Positions 46,914-60,051 of a stretch of DNA of 64,000 bases are shown here, piece after piece. The stretch is from SAR202 cluster bacterium bin22 (lineage in GTDB: Bacteria > Chloroflexota > Dehalococcoidia > Lucifugimonadales > UBA3495). The notes under the pieces are model-generated. The model had not been told where the DNA came from. It worked only from the letters and a program-made list of their open reading frames with translations, and did no database searches. Position numbers and translations under genes: made by a program. Every line of letters begins with the position of its first letter. Position 1 is the stretch's first letter. The stretch covers positions 806,001 through 870,000 of the forward strand of contig MPMM01000001.1 of assembly GCA_002238505.1 (NCBI GenBank). The letters run 5' to 3'.

Positions 46914-47687
46914 CTAACCCAGCAAAATTAAGTGGACTTCTTTGGGTCCGTGGACTCCTACTACCAGCTTCATTTCAATATCCGCGGTGCGACTGGGGCC
47001 GGTAATGAAGTTCAGGTAACTGCCCATCTCTTCGCCGTTTCGGTAGTATTCCAGCCTGCGCAGCAGGAAGACATCGTCCAGACTCTCTACAAGATCTTCA
47101 ATGCGTACGATGGCGAGATGGACGGGTGGAACCAGCGAAACCAGCCTGCTCAGTCCTCTTCGCGGAACGACTACCACCGAACCAGTCTCGGCAACAGCAT
47201 AGTCGGCTCCGGTCATGCCCAGACCTGACTCAATGATCTGGGACCTAAGCCGTTCGCGGGAACTCGCTTCATCCTGCAAGACAGTCACGCACTCGATTCC
47301 CGAAGACTGCAAAGCGGAGTCCAGGGGAAGCTCAGAAAACACCGACTGGTCTGACCGGGCTATTTGCGATATCGAGTGATTCCTGGCCAGTTCTACAGCG
47401 TAACCCACTGCATCCTCAGCGTTGGTAGTCCTGAATAAATTCCAACTGCGCAGCCGGGCAGTCTCAGCGAATTGGTCCAGCAGATGACTTCTTTTGTCCT
47501 CCAGGCGACGCCTGATCTCCGCTGCATGCTCTTCCAAAACGGCCAAATCTTCGGCCAGACGGTGATAAGGAGGGGACGGATCGAGGCGATCAGAGCGGCC
47601 AAGGCTCCGGCGAACGTGTGCCAGGAAGTCATTTTTCGGTATCCCCAGGGATTTCACATTTTGTTTTTCGACCATGGTAGCCTTCAA
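46914..47687 (-). CDS. lutC: Lactate utilization protein C (LUD domain)
   Basis: LutC is the third component of the LutABC iron-sulfur L-lactate oxidation complex. The LUD domain is seen in GADYAVAETGSVVVVPRRGL, with downstream ITGPSRTADIEMKLVVGVHG, which is typical of the family. TTG at 47687 overlaps the lutB stop (TTGA); an ATG at 47675 is an alternative. The length of 257 residues is normal. Confidence 0.93.
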   Translation of the reverse strand: MKATMVEKQNVKSLGIPKNDFLAHVRRSLGRSDRLDPSPPYHRLAEDLAVLEEHAAEIRRRLEDKRSHLLDQFAETARLRSWNLFRTTNAEDAVGYAVELARNHSISQIARSDQSVFSELPLDSALQSSGIECVTVLQDEASSRERLRSQIIESGLGMTGADYAVAETGSVVVVPRRGLSRLVSLVPPVHLAIVRIEDLVESLDDVFLLRRLEYYRNGEEMGSYLNFITGPSRTADIEMKLVVGVHGPKEVHLILLG

Positions 47688-49141
47688 CCCCGGGTTTCAG
47701 ATTCGCCTTCCAGTTCATCTGCCCATATTTGTCGAAAACTGCGCCTGGCCAATGTGGGCAAATCTCGGGCCGCAGTCCACTGGGAAACCAGCGGAAGGGA
47801 TACCTTTTTTGCGACTTTGCCTTCAGAAGAAAAGGGCTTTTGCACCATTCTGCCAACCTTACTTGCCGCAGAAAGAGCCGCGGGATTACTCATAAGCCAA
47901 GTGTATCCCTTGGCGGCCTGCCTTTCGATCAGGGTTGAAGAGTTTTCTGCGTCGCTGGGACTCTCGGCCAGGCGATGCCGGAGATGGAGCAACATGCGCG
48001 GGATGTTGATCTTGATTGGGCAGACCTCCCGACAAGCCCCGCAAAGGCTGGAGGCATGGGGAAGGTCCTTGGCATCCTTCAACCCTACCAGGGCCGGGGA
48101 GACAATAGCCCCAATGGGACCCGGGTAAACCCAGCCATAAGCATGCCCGCCGATTTTGCCGTAAACAGGGCAAATGTTCAGGCATGCACCGCAACGGATG
48201 CAATAAAGGGCCTCCCTCAATTCGGGGTCAGCCAGCAGTCTGGACCGGCCATTGTCCACCAGGACAAGGTGGAATTCCTCGGGCCCATCTTCGTCTTCGT
48301 TCCGCCGCGGTCCAGTTACCATGCTGACGTAACTAGTGAGTCGCTGTCCCGTAGCTGAACGGGGGAGCAAGCGGAGAAAAATAGAAAGGTCTTGCAACGA
48401 AGGTATTACCTTTTCCATGCCAGTGATGCCAATGTGGATCTTGGGAGCGGACGTACACAGGCGGCCATTGCCTTCGTTGGTAATGATTACCAGAGTCCCT
48501 GTCTCTGCAACCAGGAAATTCGCTCCGCTAATTCCCAGGTCGGCAGCCAGGAACCTGCTCCGAAGCGCTTCCCTGGCCACTCTAGCCATTTCCTCGATGT
48601 CATCAGTGAGGGGAACGCCCAATTTTTCGTGAAATAGTTCAGAAACTTGTTCCTTTGTCTTGTGCAATGCTGGAGCTACCAAGTGTGAGGGTGTCTCCTC
48701 AGCCAGTTGAATAATGTACTCGCCCAGGTCCGTCTCAAAAACATCGACCCCAACGGATTCCAGGGTCTTGTTCAAGTCCAGCTCTTCGGAAACCATGGAC
48801 TTGCTCTTGGTGGCGACTTTTACTCCCCTGGCCTGGGCAATCTCGGCGACTATTGCATTAGCCTGGGCCGCGTCTCGAGCAAAGTGGACTTGCCCGCCGG
48901 CTTTGGTTACCTGTTCGTAAAGCAACTCCAAATAGTAGTCAAGGTGTTCCAGGGCATGCACCTTGATCCGGCGCGCCTCTTCCCGCCACTGCTCCCAAGC
49001 TTCCCAGCTAACCTCTTCTATCGCCTCCAATCGAGCCTCATTGAAGCCGCCGCCAACTTGCCGCAAGGCGCGTTGCAAGGTGGCATCTTCTATGGCGGCG
49101 CCTGAGGCAGCGACGAAATCCTGGGTTTTGACCTCAGCCAT
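47684..49141 (-). CDS. lutB: Lactate utilization protein B (iron-sulfur)
   Basis: LutB carries an N-terminal LUD domain (NFLVAETGTLVIITNEGNGR) followed by two 4Fe-4S cysteine groups: CIRCGACLNICPVYGKIGG and CGACREVCPIKINIPRMLL. The start at 49141 is used because AAGGAG lies just upstream; an earlier frame begins at 49168. It overlaps lutA by eight bases and lutC by four. The three proteins oxidise L-lactate to pyruvate and use an unknown acceptor. Confidence 0.94.
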   Translation of the reverse strand: MAEVKTQDFVAASGAAIEDATLQRALRQVGGGFNEARLEAIEEVSWEAWEQWREEARRIKVHALEHLDYYLELLYEQVTKAGGQVHFARDAAQANAIVAEIAQARGVKVATKSKSMVSEELDLNKTLESVGVDVFETDLGEYIIQLAEETPSHLVAPALHKTKEQVSELFHEKLGVPLTDDIEEMARVAREALRSRFLAADLGISGANFLVAETGTLVIITNEGNGRLCTSAPKIHIGITGMEKVIPSLQDLSIFLRLLPRSATGQRLTSYVSMVTGPRRNEDEDGPEEFHLVLVDNGRSRLLADPELREALYCIRCGACLNICPVYGKIGGHAYGWVYPGPIGAIVSPALVGLKDAKDLPHASSLCGACREVCPIKINIPRMLLHLRHRLAESPSDAENSSTLIERQAAKGYTWLMSNPAALSAASKVGRMVQKPFSSEGKVAKKVSLPLVSQWTAARDLPTLARRSFRQIWADELEGESETRG

Positions 49142-49898
49142 TGCCTTCTCCTCCTGACCCTTCAGCACCGTCCAGGACCTCCGCGATGTGGCGGATATTC
49201 ATTGACTGACCCTGTCGGCTCAAGCCTCCATCTATATGAATCAGACAGCTCATGTCGCAAGCAACGAGGGTGTCTGCGCCCGTGGCGAGGACGTTGGCTA
49301 TCTTGTCTTCCATCATACCTTCGGAAATATGGGGATACTTGACGGAAAAGGTTCCTCCAAACCCACAGCAGGTTTCAGCCTGGGGCAGGGGACACAGCTC
49401 AAGACCGTCCACTTGTCCAAGCAGATTGACGGGCTCCTGTCTTACTTCCATTTCCCGCAGCAAGTGGCAGCTTGAGTGGTAGGTAGCCTTGGCTGGAAAG
49501 TAAGAGCCTGTGTCGCTTATGCCAAGGACCTTGACCAGGAATTCGGAAAACTCATACACCTTTTCCGACAATTGCTCGGCCTTCTCCCCGTAGTCAGGGT
49601 CACCCGAAAACAATTCGCGGTAGAAAACTTTCAGCATGGCAGCACAGGAGCCAGAAGGAACTACCACATAGTCGCTCAATGTAAAACTATCGATAACCCT
49701 TCGGGACAATTGGCGGGCCAGCTGGGTGTATCCCGAATTAAACAGGGGCTGCCCGCAGCAAGTCTGCTCCCCTGGGAAATCCACAATCACGCCATTACGC
49801 CGTAGCACGTTCACGACACTAACTCCCACCTGAGGGTAGAGCTGGTCCACGATACAAGTAACAAAAAGAGAGGCGTGAACTTGGGTGGGTTGGGTCAA
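49134..49898 (-). CDS. lutA: Lactate utilization protein A (CCG-domain)
   Basis: LutA belongs to the cysteine-rich (CCG) family that includes glycolate oxidase GlcF and heterodisulfide reductase HdrB. Its two CCG motifs are in GEQTCCGQPLFNSGY and AETCCGFGGTFSVKYP. The TTG at 49898 is chosen because AGAGGA lies five bases before it and gives the family-typical N-terminus near ASLFVTCIVDQLYP (254 residues). A longer frame extends to 50030 but reads through non-conserved DNA. It heads the lutABC operon. Confidence 0.92.
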   Translation of the reverse strand: MTQPTQVHASLFVTCIVDQLYPQVGVSVVNVLRRNGVIVDFPGEQTCCGQPLFNSGYTQLARQLSRRVIDSFTLSDYVVVPSGSCAAMLKVFYRELFSGDPDYGEKAEQLSEKVYEFSEFLVKVLGISDTGSYFPAKATYHSSCHLLREMEVRQEPVNLLGQVDGLELCPLPQAETCCGFGGTFSVKYPHISEGMMEDKIANVLATGADTLVACDMSCLIHIDGGLSRQGQSMNIRHIAEVLDGAEGSGGEGNG

Positions 49899-50364
49899 GG
49901 CGTTCCTCTGGGATTGATTGACTGGCTCGGTCCGGTTCAGGGGCGACCGTATTTGAACCGCATTAAAGCAACGGGAATTATTAGGTAGAGTAGCAGAGCA
50001 TCCAGGCAGTGGCAACCGACGTTTTCCCAAAGAGAGCAGCCAGGTACCTCACCCGAATTCTCACCTGTGTCATGCTAAGCGCTGCATATTCGGAATCGAA
50101 ACCGGAGCGTTGGAGTTTTGCTGTGTCAATTTCAAGCGGCTCCAGTTGACTGCCGATGACTGGCCCAAACGGGTGTCGATGCTGTCAGCAAGTCCACTCC
50201 CATTTGCTGGCTTCGGGGTGTCACATGGAACTCAACGATCTGAACACCGACGATCTACACCGGAGTTTTCTCAGTGTTCACCGATCGAGCATCAGGCCAC
50301 AAAAATATTTCGGCGTTAGAAAGAGATTGCGTTCACCCGCTGCCGGATTTATTTGAGGCATGGA
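49899..50364. other. No gene seen upstream of lutA
   Basis: No supported gene. Short frames on both strands have no RBS or recognisable domain. The lutA promoter should lie here, but no strong -35/-10 pair was found. Confidence 0.6.
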
Positions 50365-51695: not shown

Positions 51696-51792
51696 TGGCG
51701 GGAGTGCGAGGGAGTCGAACCCACCTACCCCGCTCTTCACGAGGCACAACGGATTTGAAGTCCGCAAGAGCCACCGGGCCCCTTCCACTCCC
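51696..51792 (-). tRNA. selC: Selenocysteine tRNA (anticodon UCA)
   Basis: Read on the minus strand, this 97-base gene begins GGGAGTGG and ends GCACTCCCGCCA, with CCA encoded. The acceptor stem is at least seven pairs (GGGAGTG/CACTCCC). The anticodon arm is GCGGACTTCAAATCCGT, with anticodon TCA and the GGACTTCAAATCC core found in E. coli selC. A long variable arm lies between it and the T-arm, whose loop reads GGTTCGACTCC. These features separate it from a UGA-suppressing ordinary tRNA. It lies 29 bases after the trxA stop and is followed by a strong terminator, so it may be cut from a trxA transcript. Confidence 0.93.
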
Positions 51793-52348: not shown

Positions 52349-52364
52349 GTGAAGCGGAGGAGTT

Positions 52365-54206
52365 TTGGTTCAACAGAACTTGAGCGCGGGTGAACGCATC
52401 GAATTGCGGCTGACTTCCTGGGGACGCCTTGGAGAGGCTATGGCTTCCTATGTTGGGCACGATGTGTTCGTTCTCGGTGGCATACCTGGGGAAAGAGTCA
52501 TTGCGGAAGTCGTAAGAGTTCGACGCAAGTACGTTGCCGCCATTGTGGTGGAAGTGCTGGTGTCCTCCCCTGTACGCATAGCGCCGCCGTGTCCCTATTA
52601 CGGCTTCTGCACCGGTTGCCAGTGGCAGCATGTGGACTACGAGGCTCAACTGGACGCAAAGCGCGATAAGGTGAGCGACGCTCTGAAACGGGTCGGAGGA
52701 ATGGAGCAGATTCCTGTGGAGAAAACGTTGCCATCTCCTGTTCAGTACGGCTACCGGAACCATGCGAGGTTTACCGTCGGAAAAAGCGGCGACCTGGGCT
52801 TTGTGAATCGCGAGACCAGGCAATTCATTCACATAGACCGTTGCATGCTGATGCACGATGGAATCAATCACATCCTCGAAGAGTTGCAGGACCGGTGCAG
52901 CGAAACCACGCAATTGGCGGTCAGGGCCGGCCGGGATACAGGTGATTACCTGGTGCAGCCGCCCCTGAAGAACCCAGAAATATCCATTCCCACTGGACAA
53001 AAGCATTACCAGGAGTCGGTGTCAGGCCGGGCGTTTCGGGTTGCCTCACCCTCCTTCTTTCAGGTCAATGTTGATCAGGCAGCCCAGCTAATCGAAGTGG
53101 TGCGCAATACTGTTGGTCTCAGTGGCAACGAAGTGCTGCTGGATGCGTACACGGGGGTGGGAACTTTTGCAGTATTGCTCGCCCCATTTGCCAGACAGGT
53201 TTATGCCATTGAAGAGTCTTCGGCTGCAGTGGAGGATGCCAGGCAAAATGCCGCCGGCGTGGAGAATCTGGGGTTTCTGCTTGGTAAGACTGAAGATGTA
53301 TTGGCCGACTTGCCGCAGTCTCCCGATATTGTCATCCTGGACCCGCCCCGGGCCGGGTGTCAGCCTTCGGCGCTGGCCAAACTGCTGGACCTCAAGGCTC
53401 CAAAGATAGTCTATGTGTCCTGCGACCCCGAAACCCTGGCCAGGGACTTGAAGGTGCTGTGCGCGGACTCCTATTCGGTAGTCCATATTCAGCCCGTCGA
53501 CATGTTTCCCCAAACACAGCATGTGGAATGTGTAGCTGTTCTCACACTTTCCAGCAGCAGTCCTCTTATCTTGGCTTCCGGCTCTCCGAGGCGTCGGGAG
53601 TTGCTCACTGAACTCGGTCTGAAGTTTGAAGTCCGCCCGTCTAATGCACCAGAAGAACAGATTGAGGGCGAGACCGCCGAAGAGATGGTGCAGCGCTTGT
53701 CGCGCGATAAAGCCATGGTAGTGGCCGCTGACCTGACGGAAGGGTTTGTAATCGGCGCGGACAGCACGGTGGTGCTGGAAGGGCGGTCAATCGGGAAACC
53801 CGAGGATGAAGAAGACGCCCGGCGTATGCTCATGGAGTTGCGAGGCACGGAACACCAGGTAACTACGGGTTTAACCGTTGTCAATGTTGCTACCGGCCGG
53901 CTTCTGACGGAATATATGACTGCAGAAATTGTTATGCGCAACTTCACTGAAGAGGAGATGGAACAGTCCATAGCCTCGGGCACTCCAATGGACAAAGCAG
54001 GGGCGTATGCCGTTCAGGACACTGAATTCAGGCCGGCTACCCTTCAGGGTGGCTGCTACACCAACGTGGTCGGACTGCCCCTTTGCCGCCTGATGGAGAT
54101 GCTGGAAGAACTGGGATACGAGGCGCTGCCAGACTTGAAATCGGACGTAGGCAGCCATTGCCTGGGCTCTTGCCCCTTCCGGGGTTGCGGTGAGGCTACA
54201 CAGTGA
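52365..54206 (+). CDS. Fusion of RlmD-type rRNA methyltransferase and Maf nucleotide pyrophosphatase
   Basis: The N-terminal part (to about residue 393) is a 23S rRNA (uracil-C5)-methyltransferase of the RumA/TrmA family. It has a TRAM-like start, Fe-S cysteines in CPYYGFCTGC plus Cys near residue 160, SAM motif LLDAYTGVGTFAVL, and the catalytic cysteine in YVSCDPETLARDL. From about residue 396 a Maf domain follows: ILASGSPRRRELL, GADSTVVLEGRSIGKP, and DKAGAYAV near residue 545. Maf hydrolyses non-canonical and canonical NTPs and affects septum formation. There is no stop or frame change at the junction. The last 25 residues are an extra tail with three cysteines (GSHCLGSCPFRGCGE). TTG start, GGAGGAG upstream. 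Confidence 0.9.
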   Translation: MVQQNLSAGERIELRLTSWGRLGEAMASYVGHDVFVLGGIPGERVIAEVVRVRRKYVAAIVVEVLVSSPVRIAPPCPYYGFCTGCQWQHVDYEAQLDAKRDKVSDALKRVGGMEQIPVEKTLPSPVQYGYRNHARFTVGKSGDLGFVNRETRQFIHIDRCMLMHDGINHILEELQDRCSETTQLAVRAGRDTGDYLVQPPLKNPEISIPTGQKHYQESVSGRAFRVASPSFFQVNVDQAAQLIEVVRNTVGLSGNEVLLDAYTGVGTFAVLLAPFARQVYAIEESSAAVEDARQNAAGVENLGFLLGKTEDVLADLPQSPDIVILDPPRAGCQPSALAKLLDLKAPKIVYVSCDPETLARDLKVLCADSYSVVHIQPVDMFPQTQHVECVAVLTLSSSSPLILASGSPRRRELLTELGLKFEVRPSNAPEEQIEGETAEEMVQRLSRDKAMVVAADLTEGFVIGADSTVVLEGRSIGKPEDEEDARRMLMELRGTEHQVTTGLTVVNVATGRLLTEYMTAEIVMRNFTEEEMEQSIASGTPMDKAGAYAVQDTEFRPATLQGGCYTNVVGLPLCRLMEMLEELGYEALPDLKSDVGSHCLGSCPFRGCGEATQ

Positions 54207-54499
54207 ACCTCTTTGGCGTGGGGTTCCTGGAACTGGCCGTCATATTTCTTATCGCCTTTCTGGTTATGGGGCCAGCCAAGGCCATTGAAATGGCGCGGAC
54301 AGCCGGGAAGCTCTTAGGCGACATGCGCCGCACTGTCAACGAAATGACCGCTGCAGCAGACTTGAACGAGCACCCTGCAGCGCAACCTCCAACACCTTCA
54401 CAAGCTCCCAGCCCATCCGTGACGCCACCTGCAGGGGCGGTGCCCACCTCTGGACCAGAAGAAGGGAATGAGCAGCAGTCGCGAACTCACACTGATTGA
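54203..54499 (+). CDS. TatA/TatB-like twin-arginine translocase subunit
   Basis: This 98-residue protein has an N-terminal membrane helix (FLELAVIFLIAFLVMGPAKA) followed by an amphipathic helix (EMARTAGKLLGDMRRTVNEM) and a Pro/Ala/Thr/Ser-rich tail, the layout of TatA/TatB. The helix ends with the MGP motif typical of TatB. GTG start overlaps the fusion gene's stop (GTGA). It overlaps tatC by 32 bases. A second, clearly TatA-type protein is encoded convergently at 55295, so this one probably acts as TatB. Confidence 0.85.
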   Translation: MNLFGVGFLELAVIFLIAFLVMGPAKAIEMARTAGKLLGDMRRTVNEMTAAADLNEHPAAQPPTPSQAPSPSVTPPAGAVPTSGPEEGNEQQSRTHTD

Positions 54500-55238
54500 G
54501 CACCTGGTAGAACTGCGTAAGCGCGTATTTATCAGCTTGGTGGCGCTCATTATTGGCGCGATGGTAGCGTTCCTGTTCTGGACGGACATTGTCGAGCTAT
54601 TGAAGCGGCCTGCCCAGGAAGTGAACGACGGTGAAGGCGTCGTCCTGATTGCAACCCAGGTGACGGAATTGTTGTCCACCAGCGTGAAGGTCTCGCTGGT
54701 TGGGGGCTTTGTCCTGGCCATGCCCATAATCCTTTACCAGATAGTCCGGTTCGTAGCACCAGGCCTCACTTCATCGGAACGCCGTTATCTTTTCCTGTTT
54801 ATGCCGGGGGCTCTCCTGGCCTTTGTCTGCGGCCTGGCCTTCGCCTATTACGTCCTGACCCCCAGGGCTTTGCCGTTTCTGCTGACCTTTGGCGGCGGGG
54901 TGGCTGACCCACTCATAAGAATCAGCAACCTGGTTGACGTAATGTTGAGGCTGCTATTTTGGATGGGACTGGCCTTTGAAACCCCTGTAATCATGTACCT
55001 GCTGGCACAGTTGGGTATAGTCACTTCTGGGATGTTCAGACGGTTCAGGAAATACTGGGTGGTTATTGCCTTTATTCTGGGGGCCATCATCACACCTACT
55101 TTCGACCCCCTGAACCAGACCCTGGTCGCCGCGCCGCTGCTGGCCCTGTACGAGTTGGGCATTCTCCTGGCATGGCTTGCGGGTCGCGGCAGGCAGAGAG
55201 CCAGAAACGAAATGGCATCGCTCTCGGAAGGACACTAA
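54468..55238 (+). CDS. tatC: Twin-arginine translocase subunit TatC
   Basis: TatC is the membrane core that binds twin-arginine signal peptides and exports folded proteins. Six hydrophobic segments are visible, with the conserved opening SSSRELTLIEHLVELRKRVF, the FVAPGLTSSERRY region and the LRLLFWMGLAFETPV segment. The length of 256 residues is normal. It starts inside the tatB-like gene (32-base overlap) and its stop (TAA) abuts the hairpin that terminates the opposing tatA. Confidence 0.94.
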   Translation: MSSSRELTLIEHLVELRKRVFISLVALIIGAMVAFLFWTDIVELLKRPAQEVNDGEGVVLIATQVTELLSTSVKVSLVGGFVLAMPIILYQIVRFVAPGLTSSERRYLFLFMPGALLAFVCGLAFAYYVLTPRALPFLLTFGGGVADPLIRISNLVDVMLRLLFWMGLAFETPVIMYLLAQLGIVTSGMFRRFRKYWVVIAFILGAIITPTFDPLNQTLVAAPLLALYELGILLAWLAGRGRQRARNEMASLSEGH

Positions 55239-58617: not shown

Positions 58618-60051
58618 ATGTCTACGCCTCCGGAGACCACTTACTCCCCTCGGATTTATCCCCTCGATGCTCACAAATTGACTGAAGAGGAGATTGCCGT
58701 GGCCTTCGCCATGACTTCGCGAAGGGCGGAACCCTTCGACGAAATCGCGGAGCAGGTAAGCAAGGAAAAGGCGGCCGACTTTCACGAGCGTTGGGTCCTG
58801 GGTTACGGGCACGCCTCGGTGGCAGAACATGCGGTTATCCATCTGGCAGTGGAGAACATTAGCAGGCTGGTTTGTGACACGCTGGAAGATAACAGGCTGG
58901 CCTCATACACCGAAAAGTCCTCCCGCTACCAGTTAATGCCCCGGGACTACTTTCACATTCCCGAGGAACTCGAGGCCAACCCCGAAGCAAAGGCTGTTTA
59001 TCTGTCCACTTGCCAGGGACTCTTTGCTTCCTACGAGCAACTGGTAGAAGGCTGCATGGAATACCTGCGCCACGAACTCCCTCAACGAGAAAGGGAGAGA
59101 GATGGGGCATACAACCTGAGGTTGCGAAGGCTCACCACTGACGCGTGCCGGTCAGCCCTGCCTTCCGCCACGCTTACCAATGTGGGACTCACCGCCAACG
59201 CTCGTGTGCTGGAGCACGCCATTTCCAAGCTGATGTCTTCAGGACTTGCTGAGGAACGGTTACTTGGAGAGCAGCTTCGGGAGCAAGGAAGGGTTATAAC
59301 TCCAACCCTCATTAAGTACGCCGACCGGAGCAAGTACCTAGAAGATACACTTCAGCGTGACTGGCAACTGAGATTCCACGCCGGGGCGGGAGGTTTATCC
59401 GGCAACTCTACAACTGTAAACCTGGTCCACTTTGACGGGCATGCCGAAGAAAAGCTGACCGCCGCCCTACTGTTTCGCCTATCCTCGGGGGACTACGTGG
59501 GGGCATGGGAACAATCTCAAGAAATGGACCCGGAAGCACGTTCTCAGCTAATCGGCAACCTGATGGAGAACCTGGGCGACCATGACGCTCCGCTTCGCGA
59601 GTTTGAACTGGTGGACTACACCTTCGAATACATAATGGACTATGGCGCTTATCGGGAATTCAAGCGCCATAGAATGCAGTCCTACTTTCCTCAGGCGCTC
59701 ACTGCGGACCTGGGATACAAGACACCTGAACTGCTGTTGCAAGCAGGTCTGGAAGAGTCCTTCAGTGGCGCCATGGAAATGGCGGAAGAAGGATTTCGGC
59801 GCATTTCGCAGGATGCGCCACTAGCTGCCCAATATCTTGTAACCCACGGCCACTACCGAAGGGTACTGTCCAAGCTAAATCTCAGAGAGTGTTACCACCT
59901 GTTTAAGCTGCGGTCGTCGAAGCAGGCTCACGAGTCTATCAGGGAACCCGTTCTGGAAGCCATGAGGTTGGCAGTCGAGGTTCATCCTCAATTATTCCGT
60001 TGGCTGAAACTCAGGGATTATCCTGACTGGTGGCCCTTTGACGATCGATAG
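58618..60051 (+). CDS. Double-domain ThyX-like (flavin-dependent thymidylate synthase family) protein
   Basis: This 477-residue protein contains two ThyX-like halves. The N-terminal half has GHASVAEH (residues 64-71) and RLASYTEKSSRY, matching the end of the ThyX signature RHRxxSxNExSxRY without the RHR. The C-terminal half has YREFKRHRMQSYFPQALT near residue 350, which keeps the RHR but not the NExSxRY end. Single-domain ThyX proteins are about 220-250 residues and function as homotetramers, so this looks like an internal duplication with split active-site motifs. Flavin-dependent dTMP synthesis is plausible but not certain. Upstream dcd may provide dUMP. A hairpin follows. Confidence 0.8.
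   Translation: MSTPPETTYSPRIYPLDAHKLTEEEIAVAFAMTSRRAEPFDEIAEQVSKEKAADFHERWVLGYGHASVAEHAVIHLAVENISRLVCDTLEDNRLASYTEKSSRYQLMPRDYFHIPEELEANPEAKAVYLSTCQGLFASYEQLVEGCMEYLRHELPQRERERDGAYNLRLRRLTTDACRSALPSATLTNVGLTANARVLEHAISKLMSSGLAEERLLGEQLREQGRVITPTLIKYADRSKYLEDTLQRDWQLRFHAGAGGLSGNSTTVNLVHFDGHAEEKLTAALLFRLSSGDYVGAWEQSQEMDPEARSQLIGNLMENLGDHDAPLREFELVDYTFEYIMDYGAYREFKRHRMQSYFPQALTADLGYKTPELLLQAGLEESFSGAMEMAEEGFRRISQDAPLAAQYLVTHGHYRRVLSKLNLRECYHLFKLRSSKQAHESIREPVLEAMRLAVEVHPQLFRWLKLRDYPDWWPFDDR

Follow-up and report, generated by a model that had tools for sequence, protein, structure and literature searches.

A single open reading frame of SAR202 cluster bacterium bin22 joins an RlmD/RlmCD-type 23S rRNA m5U methyltransferase to a YhdE-type Maf nucleotide pyrophosphatase, and probably specifies a native bifunctional protein, two independently working enzymes on one chain that are chiefly thereby made in a fixed ratio. 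The frame lies in what is here called the window, the whole 64,000-nucleotide stretch of DNA analysed. Among related RlmD sequences, 87 distinct ones have the same joined frame, and the recurrence of the fusion is therefore far past chance. The single unbroken frame of the original prediction is thus confirmed, both by the frame itself and by these relatives. The features of the gene and of its downstream neighbours are collected in Table 1.

Table 1. Coordinates, within the window, of the fused gene, its parts and the genes that follow it.
Feature	Coordinates	Strand	Basis or remark
GGAGGAG, probable ribosome-binding site of the fused gene	52356..52362	+	read from sequence
rlmD-maf fused gene	52365..54206	+	613 codons, TTG start, TGA stop; unbroken open reading frame
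RlmD/RlmCD-type 23S rRNA m5U methyltransferase domain, residues 1-393	52365..53543	+	profile scores, alignment, Foldseek
Linker, residues 394-399	53544..53561	+	length differs among relatives
YhdE-type Maf nucleotide pyrophosphatase domain, residues 400-584	53562..54116	+	profile scores, alignment, Foldseek
GCYTNVVGLPLC segment with C564 and C574	54054..54086	+	alignment of Mafs
C-terminal tail, residues 585-613, with C599-x3-C603; little conserved beyond the Cys pair	54117..54203	+	
tatA/B-like gene	54203..54499	+	GTG start overlaps the TGA stop of the fusion as GTGA
tatC	54468..55238	+	overlaps tatA; apparent operon with the fused gene and tatA

Two complete domains on one chain

Both domains are recognized by independent profiles. 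Pfam matches were obtained for Maf at residues 400-582 (E 2.2e-53; 181 bits, cut-off 27) and for tRNA_U5-meth_tr at 223-393 (E 1.1e-20), while the NCBIfam models TIGR00479 (RlmD/rumA; 317 bits, curated cut-off 183.55) and TIGR00172 (maf; 156 bits, cut-off 117) both scored above their thresholds; the limits originally assigned to the two halves agree with these matches. A joint structure, proposed earlier as a check, was predicted with AlphaFold2 from an alignment with 61 fused relatives (mean pLDDT 90, pTM 0.72), confidence being poor chiefly in the C-terminal tail. Foldseek matched the N-terminal half of the model to RlmCD/RumA (5zq0, 1uwv; target TM 0.77-0.79 over about 450 columns), with the dual-site enzyme RlmCD as top match, and the C-terminal half to YhdE and B. 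subtilis Maf (target TM about 0.84-0.92), the folds that the two halves are accordingly modelled to adopt.

Residues expected at the active sites are also retained. In a 62-sequence alignment of fused proteins, C76, C82, C85, C160, C353 and E388 of the RlmD half are invariant; by reference to RumA we take the first four to be the Fe-S cysteines, C353 (in a VSC motif) to be the nucleophile, and E388 to be the catalytic Glu. Invariant in the Maf half, whose residue numbering is taken from alignment to YhdE, are S407, R409, E430, K449, D466, K478 and Q551, with S467 also among the residues mapped, and the catalytic residues of Maf are kept in fused and unfused Mafs alike. Of the R-T-Q signature of YhdE (Arg12, Thr71, Gln153), R409 and Q551 are preserved whereas S467 replaces Thr, a position occupied by T in 49 of 88 fused relatives and by Ser in the window's family; the Maf half is clearly distinct from the W-Q-E signature of YceF. 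Profile scores, alignments and folds together uphold the earlier claim that both halves are complete and keep their catalytic motifs.

Compared with characterized enzymes, the methyltransferase half shares the fold, Fe-S cysteines and VSC nucleophile motif of RlmD/RumA and RlmCD (TrmA superfamily; PDB 1uwv, 2bh2, 5zq0), but these are single-domain chains of about 430-450 aa, whereas the corresponding domain of the fusion ends near residue 393 and continues into Maf. Similarly, the Maf half shares with E. coli YhdE and B. subtilis Maf BSU28050 the fold, the catalytic residues, and the R and Q of R-T-Q; solved YhdE-type Mafs are free-standing, however, in contrast to the joined Maf of the fusion, with its Ser for Thr and its extra cysteines at 564, 574, 599 and 603.

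Searches of the window's genome (about 97% complete) with the whole protein and with the Pfam Maf and tRNA_U5-meth_tr models returned the fused gene as the sole detected match, and one TrmA-superfamily gene was detected; since no other match to either domain was found in the genome, both functions are represented there, as far as detected, by the fusion alone. In comparison with L087, a relative 83% identical, omega is 0.107 for the RlmD half and 0.087 for the Maf half, with the linker saturated and the tail relaxed (omega 0.28). Both halves are thus under strong purifying selection, and the low omega in each suggests that both domains are maintained as working enzymes. Loss of activity is known, as a general matter, in some fusion partners, and the exchange of T71 for Ser in the window's family might be read in that light; nevertheless, it is very unlikely that one half is enzymatically dead and acts as a dimerisation or RNA-delivery module, given that every catalytic position checked is kept in both halves, that omega is low, and that no second genome copy of either domain was detected.

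Other genes of the window were recorded in passing. An ordinary lactate-utilisation cluster, comprising LutB and probable LutA/LutC, occupies 46914-50030 (-). A tRNA-Sec gene is located at 51696-51792 (-), beside a thioredoxin gene, and SelB is encoded in the genome with a score above the curated cut-off; from this pair of genes, the organism probably decodes selenocysteine. A 477-aa protein encoded at 58618-60048 (+) consists of two tandem ThyX-like stretches, about twice the normal ThyX length, and scores just below the ThyX equivalog cut-off; its full length is kept in most of the window's family and in some related families, and a second copy, 47% identical, lies on contig C23 of the same genome.

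Distribution and history of the fused state

Within the window's family, 37 of 41 loci are fused (counting L003, a fused locus whose Maf is interrupted by a single in-frame TGA) and 4 of 41 are adjacent. Counted over all loci with family codes, 19 family-level groups of Dehalococcoidia/SAR202-type Chloroflexota contain fused genes and 28 contain adjacent ones, with three groups (f1, f7 and f49) containing both. Among the best 80 loci, a list ordered by match score and thereby tilted toward fused genes, 68 are fused. Named relatives, from a scan that relied on motifs particular to the lineage of the window, are nearly all MAGs of Dehalococcoidia/SAR202-type Chloroflexota. Many same-lineage matches with the same junction had been anticipated as the mark of a real fusion, and the 87 sequences provide them, as does the presence of the fused state in 19 family-level groups. 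The converse concern, an assembly error joining genes that are separate in relatives, is so improbable as to be negligible: some relatives do have two genes, but the join recurs in more than 80 distinct sequences (the 87 noted above), single-contig genomes among them. Most relatives are MAGs. An assembly artefact is rejected on these grounds.

In the rest of the class, and in another class of the phylum, rlmD and maf are distinct genes lying side by side, in many cases with overlapping ends. Maf frames elsewhere in the phylum are mostly 200-300 aa, consistent with separate genes. Several relatives have rlmD and maf apart or no detected maf. The earlier view that the fusion is uncommon for either family therefore holds in general, as far as tested, but fails in its own lineage, where fusion is usual. 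In another class of Chloroflexota, rlmD and maf adjoin in several genomes (e.g. G779, G727 and G554), and in one (G596) they share a frame, separated by a single TGA; the occurrence of adjacency in this other class suggests that the adjacent state of rlmD-maf is old. Two long frames were rejected as fusions: in G720 (668 aa) Maf and a permease gene overlap in different frames, so that RlmD is not involved, and in G800 (866 aa) the RlmD and Maf reading frames, although in the same frame, are parted by stops.

Many unfused relatives have a maf start that overlaps the stop of rlmD (offset -1, as in ATGA) or comes immediately after it (+2, as in TAATG or TGATG), an arrangement characteristic of translationally coupled genes. 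The fusion would have arisen by loss of the short stop/start junction between such genes. Members of the window's family with split or still-separate genes (L076 and L078 of family f1, genus g12; L051; L053) likewise have the maf start at, or overlapping, the rlmD stop. Near the window's own junction no start codon preceded by a Shine-Dalgarno sequence was found, so that a separately translated Maf is not expected, and independent translation of Maf within the fusion was rejected. The linker, fast-evolving and variable in length among relatives, comprises six residues in the window. Its shortness and variability might accommodate post-translational cutting of the fusion into two ordinary enzymes in cells; this is highly improbable, however, as the sequence shows neither a protease motif nor a conserved cut site, and the window offers only those six residues.

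On a tree of 159 RlmD-domain sequences, the fused/unfused label changes 15 times, as against a mean of 52 for shuffled labels; the tree is unrooted, and the count carries no direction of change. Forcing all fused sequences into one clade (55 sequences) lowered the log-likelihood by 128 (AU p 9e-62). A single origin of fusion is rejected on this test, subject to the weak support for deep branches in the RlmD tree. Because fused monophyly is rejected and the label changes 15 times, fusion and/or fission has happened repeatedly.

A few relatives (L003 and L090) have stops inside the frame, which counts against a native bifunctional protein, though these may be sequence errors or decay. The same gene in L003 (~2920) and L090, from a same-genus relative, has an in-frame TGA in the Maf half; a selenocysteine reading was rejected because the window protein has Gly at this position rather than Cys, and a mutation or sequence error appears likelier. 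Two further loci deserve mention. The gene of L092 (PBML01000036.1), a record titled Acidobacteria, groups within the window's Dehalococcoidia family, and the record is probably a mislabelled MAG. L049, from a single-contig genome (G016), has a 976-aa frame whose RlmD half contains long in-frame low-complexity insertions rich in Gly/Ala/Val, together with short tandem duplications.

Cysteines shared by fused and unfused Maf proteins

The Cys-containing tail singled out in the original prediction does exist, but it is a conserved element rather than a peculiarity of the fusion, since Mafs across much of the phylum carry it whether fused or unfused. Every one of the 87 fused Mafs that could be scored has Cys at 564 and 574, in the segment GCYTNVVGLPLC; a CxxC or CxxxC pair is present in the tail of 80 of 88, and several of the remainder have CxxH. 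Unfused neighbour Mafs carry the same motif, although position 574 is frequently W or A. Among standalone Mafs of other families in the phylum, one type has these cysteines and the other has S or D at 564 and no tail pair. The solved Mafs in the alignment have neither C564 nor C574. As judged from these alignments, C564, usually C574, and the tail pair represent a candidate zinc/metal or disulfide site of many Chloroflexota Mafs, and our reading is that it predates the fusion. All 10 scored Mafs without C564 also have neither C574 nor the tail pair; shared loss of the four cysteines was nonetheless rejected as proof of one metal site, because the tree yields only 2 independent contrasts with good support (6 if every branch is counted), too few for significance.

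A possible m5U-based partnership

RlmD makes m5U, and the N-terminal half would use SAM and its Cys nucleophile, together with a [4Fe-4S] cluster, to methylate 23S rRNA, forming m5U at what is probably the equivalent of U1939, as in its family. The C-terminal YhdE-type Maf would hydrolyse dTTP, UTP and, best, m5UTP to the monophosphate and pyrophosphate. If the Maf half dimerises like its solved relatives, the chain would form a Maf-held dimer with two methyltransferase domains. The main effect of the fusion would be a fixed 1:1 ratio of two independently working enzymes.

YhdE-type Mafs are known to hydrolyse dTTP and UTP, with m5UTP giving the lowest KM and the highest kcat/KM (PMC3899018). 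Since the Maf signature, R-S/T-Q, appears to be of this type and m5UTP is the best measured substrate, a link through m5U between the RlmD writer and its Maf partner is plausible. A stronger proposal is that the partnership itself was selected: the Maf half would clear m5UTP generated by re-phosphorylation from degraded m5U-bearing rRNA, blocking random re-incorporation of m5U. Consistent with this are the residues that point to the YhdE type for the Maf (R409, S/T467, Q551), the m5UTP preference of that type, the wide retention and repeated fusion of the rlmD-maf linkage, and precedents in which Maf is fused to or near methyltransferases, namely the Maf-methyltransferase fusion ASMTL and the association of Maf and methyltransferase genes in some archaea (PMC3899018). 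The linkage takes in tatA, however (and tatC in the window), without such functional logic; because this tatA/B-like gene is the conserved downstream gene in most relatives, linkage alone is poor evidence. Moreover, the genes lie apart, or maf went undetected, in the several relatives already mentioned, and a diffusible free NTP pool requires no physical link. We regard selection for such a partnership as possible but rather unlikely, and rank above it a mainly co-expression role with two independent activities. A fuller version, in which the chain acts as a dedicated m5U hygiene enzyme that both sets the m5U mark in rRNA and breaks down free m5UTP against misincorporation, with a Cys3/Cys4 metal or redox site that stabilises or regulates it, is somewhat more doubtful again. 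The earlier suggestion that the fusion couples rRNA methylation with NTP surveillance is accordingly weakly supported: the signature makes an m5U link plausible, but the genes are old neighbours, often translationally coupled, beside tatA/tatC, and the fused state has been gained and/or lost repeatedly. Its other suggestion, septum control, finds nothing in this analysis in its favour.

An architectural parallel is ASMTL of human and other eukaryotes, likewise a YhdE-type Maf covalently linked to a SAM-dependent methyltransferase (PMC3899018); there, however, Maf is N-terminal and the predicted methyltransferase ASMT-like, whereas in the fusion Maf is C-terminal and its partner an RNA m5U enzyme; by Pfam and NCBIfam, domain order and methyltransferase family both separate it from the ASMTL type. 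A search of open-licence papers found no published RlmD-Maf fusion. The fusion is a genuine yet mild novelty, not a new kind of system, because the join recurs across a large, mostly uncultured Chloroflexota group in which both genes are normally tightly coupled neighbours. In it an RNA-modification writer is naturally and repeatedly paired with a sanitiser of modified nucleotides whose predicted base preference matches, and its many fused and split relatives furnish clean comparative material. The fusion would allow a direct test of whether YhdE-type Mafs, as proposed, exclude modified bases such as m5U from new RNA.
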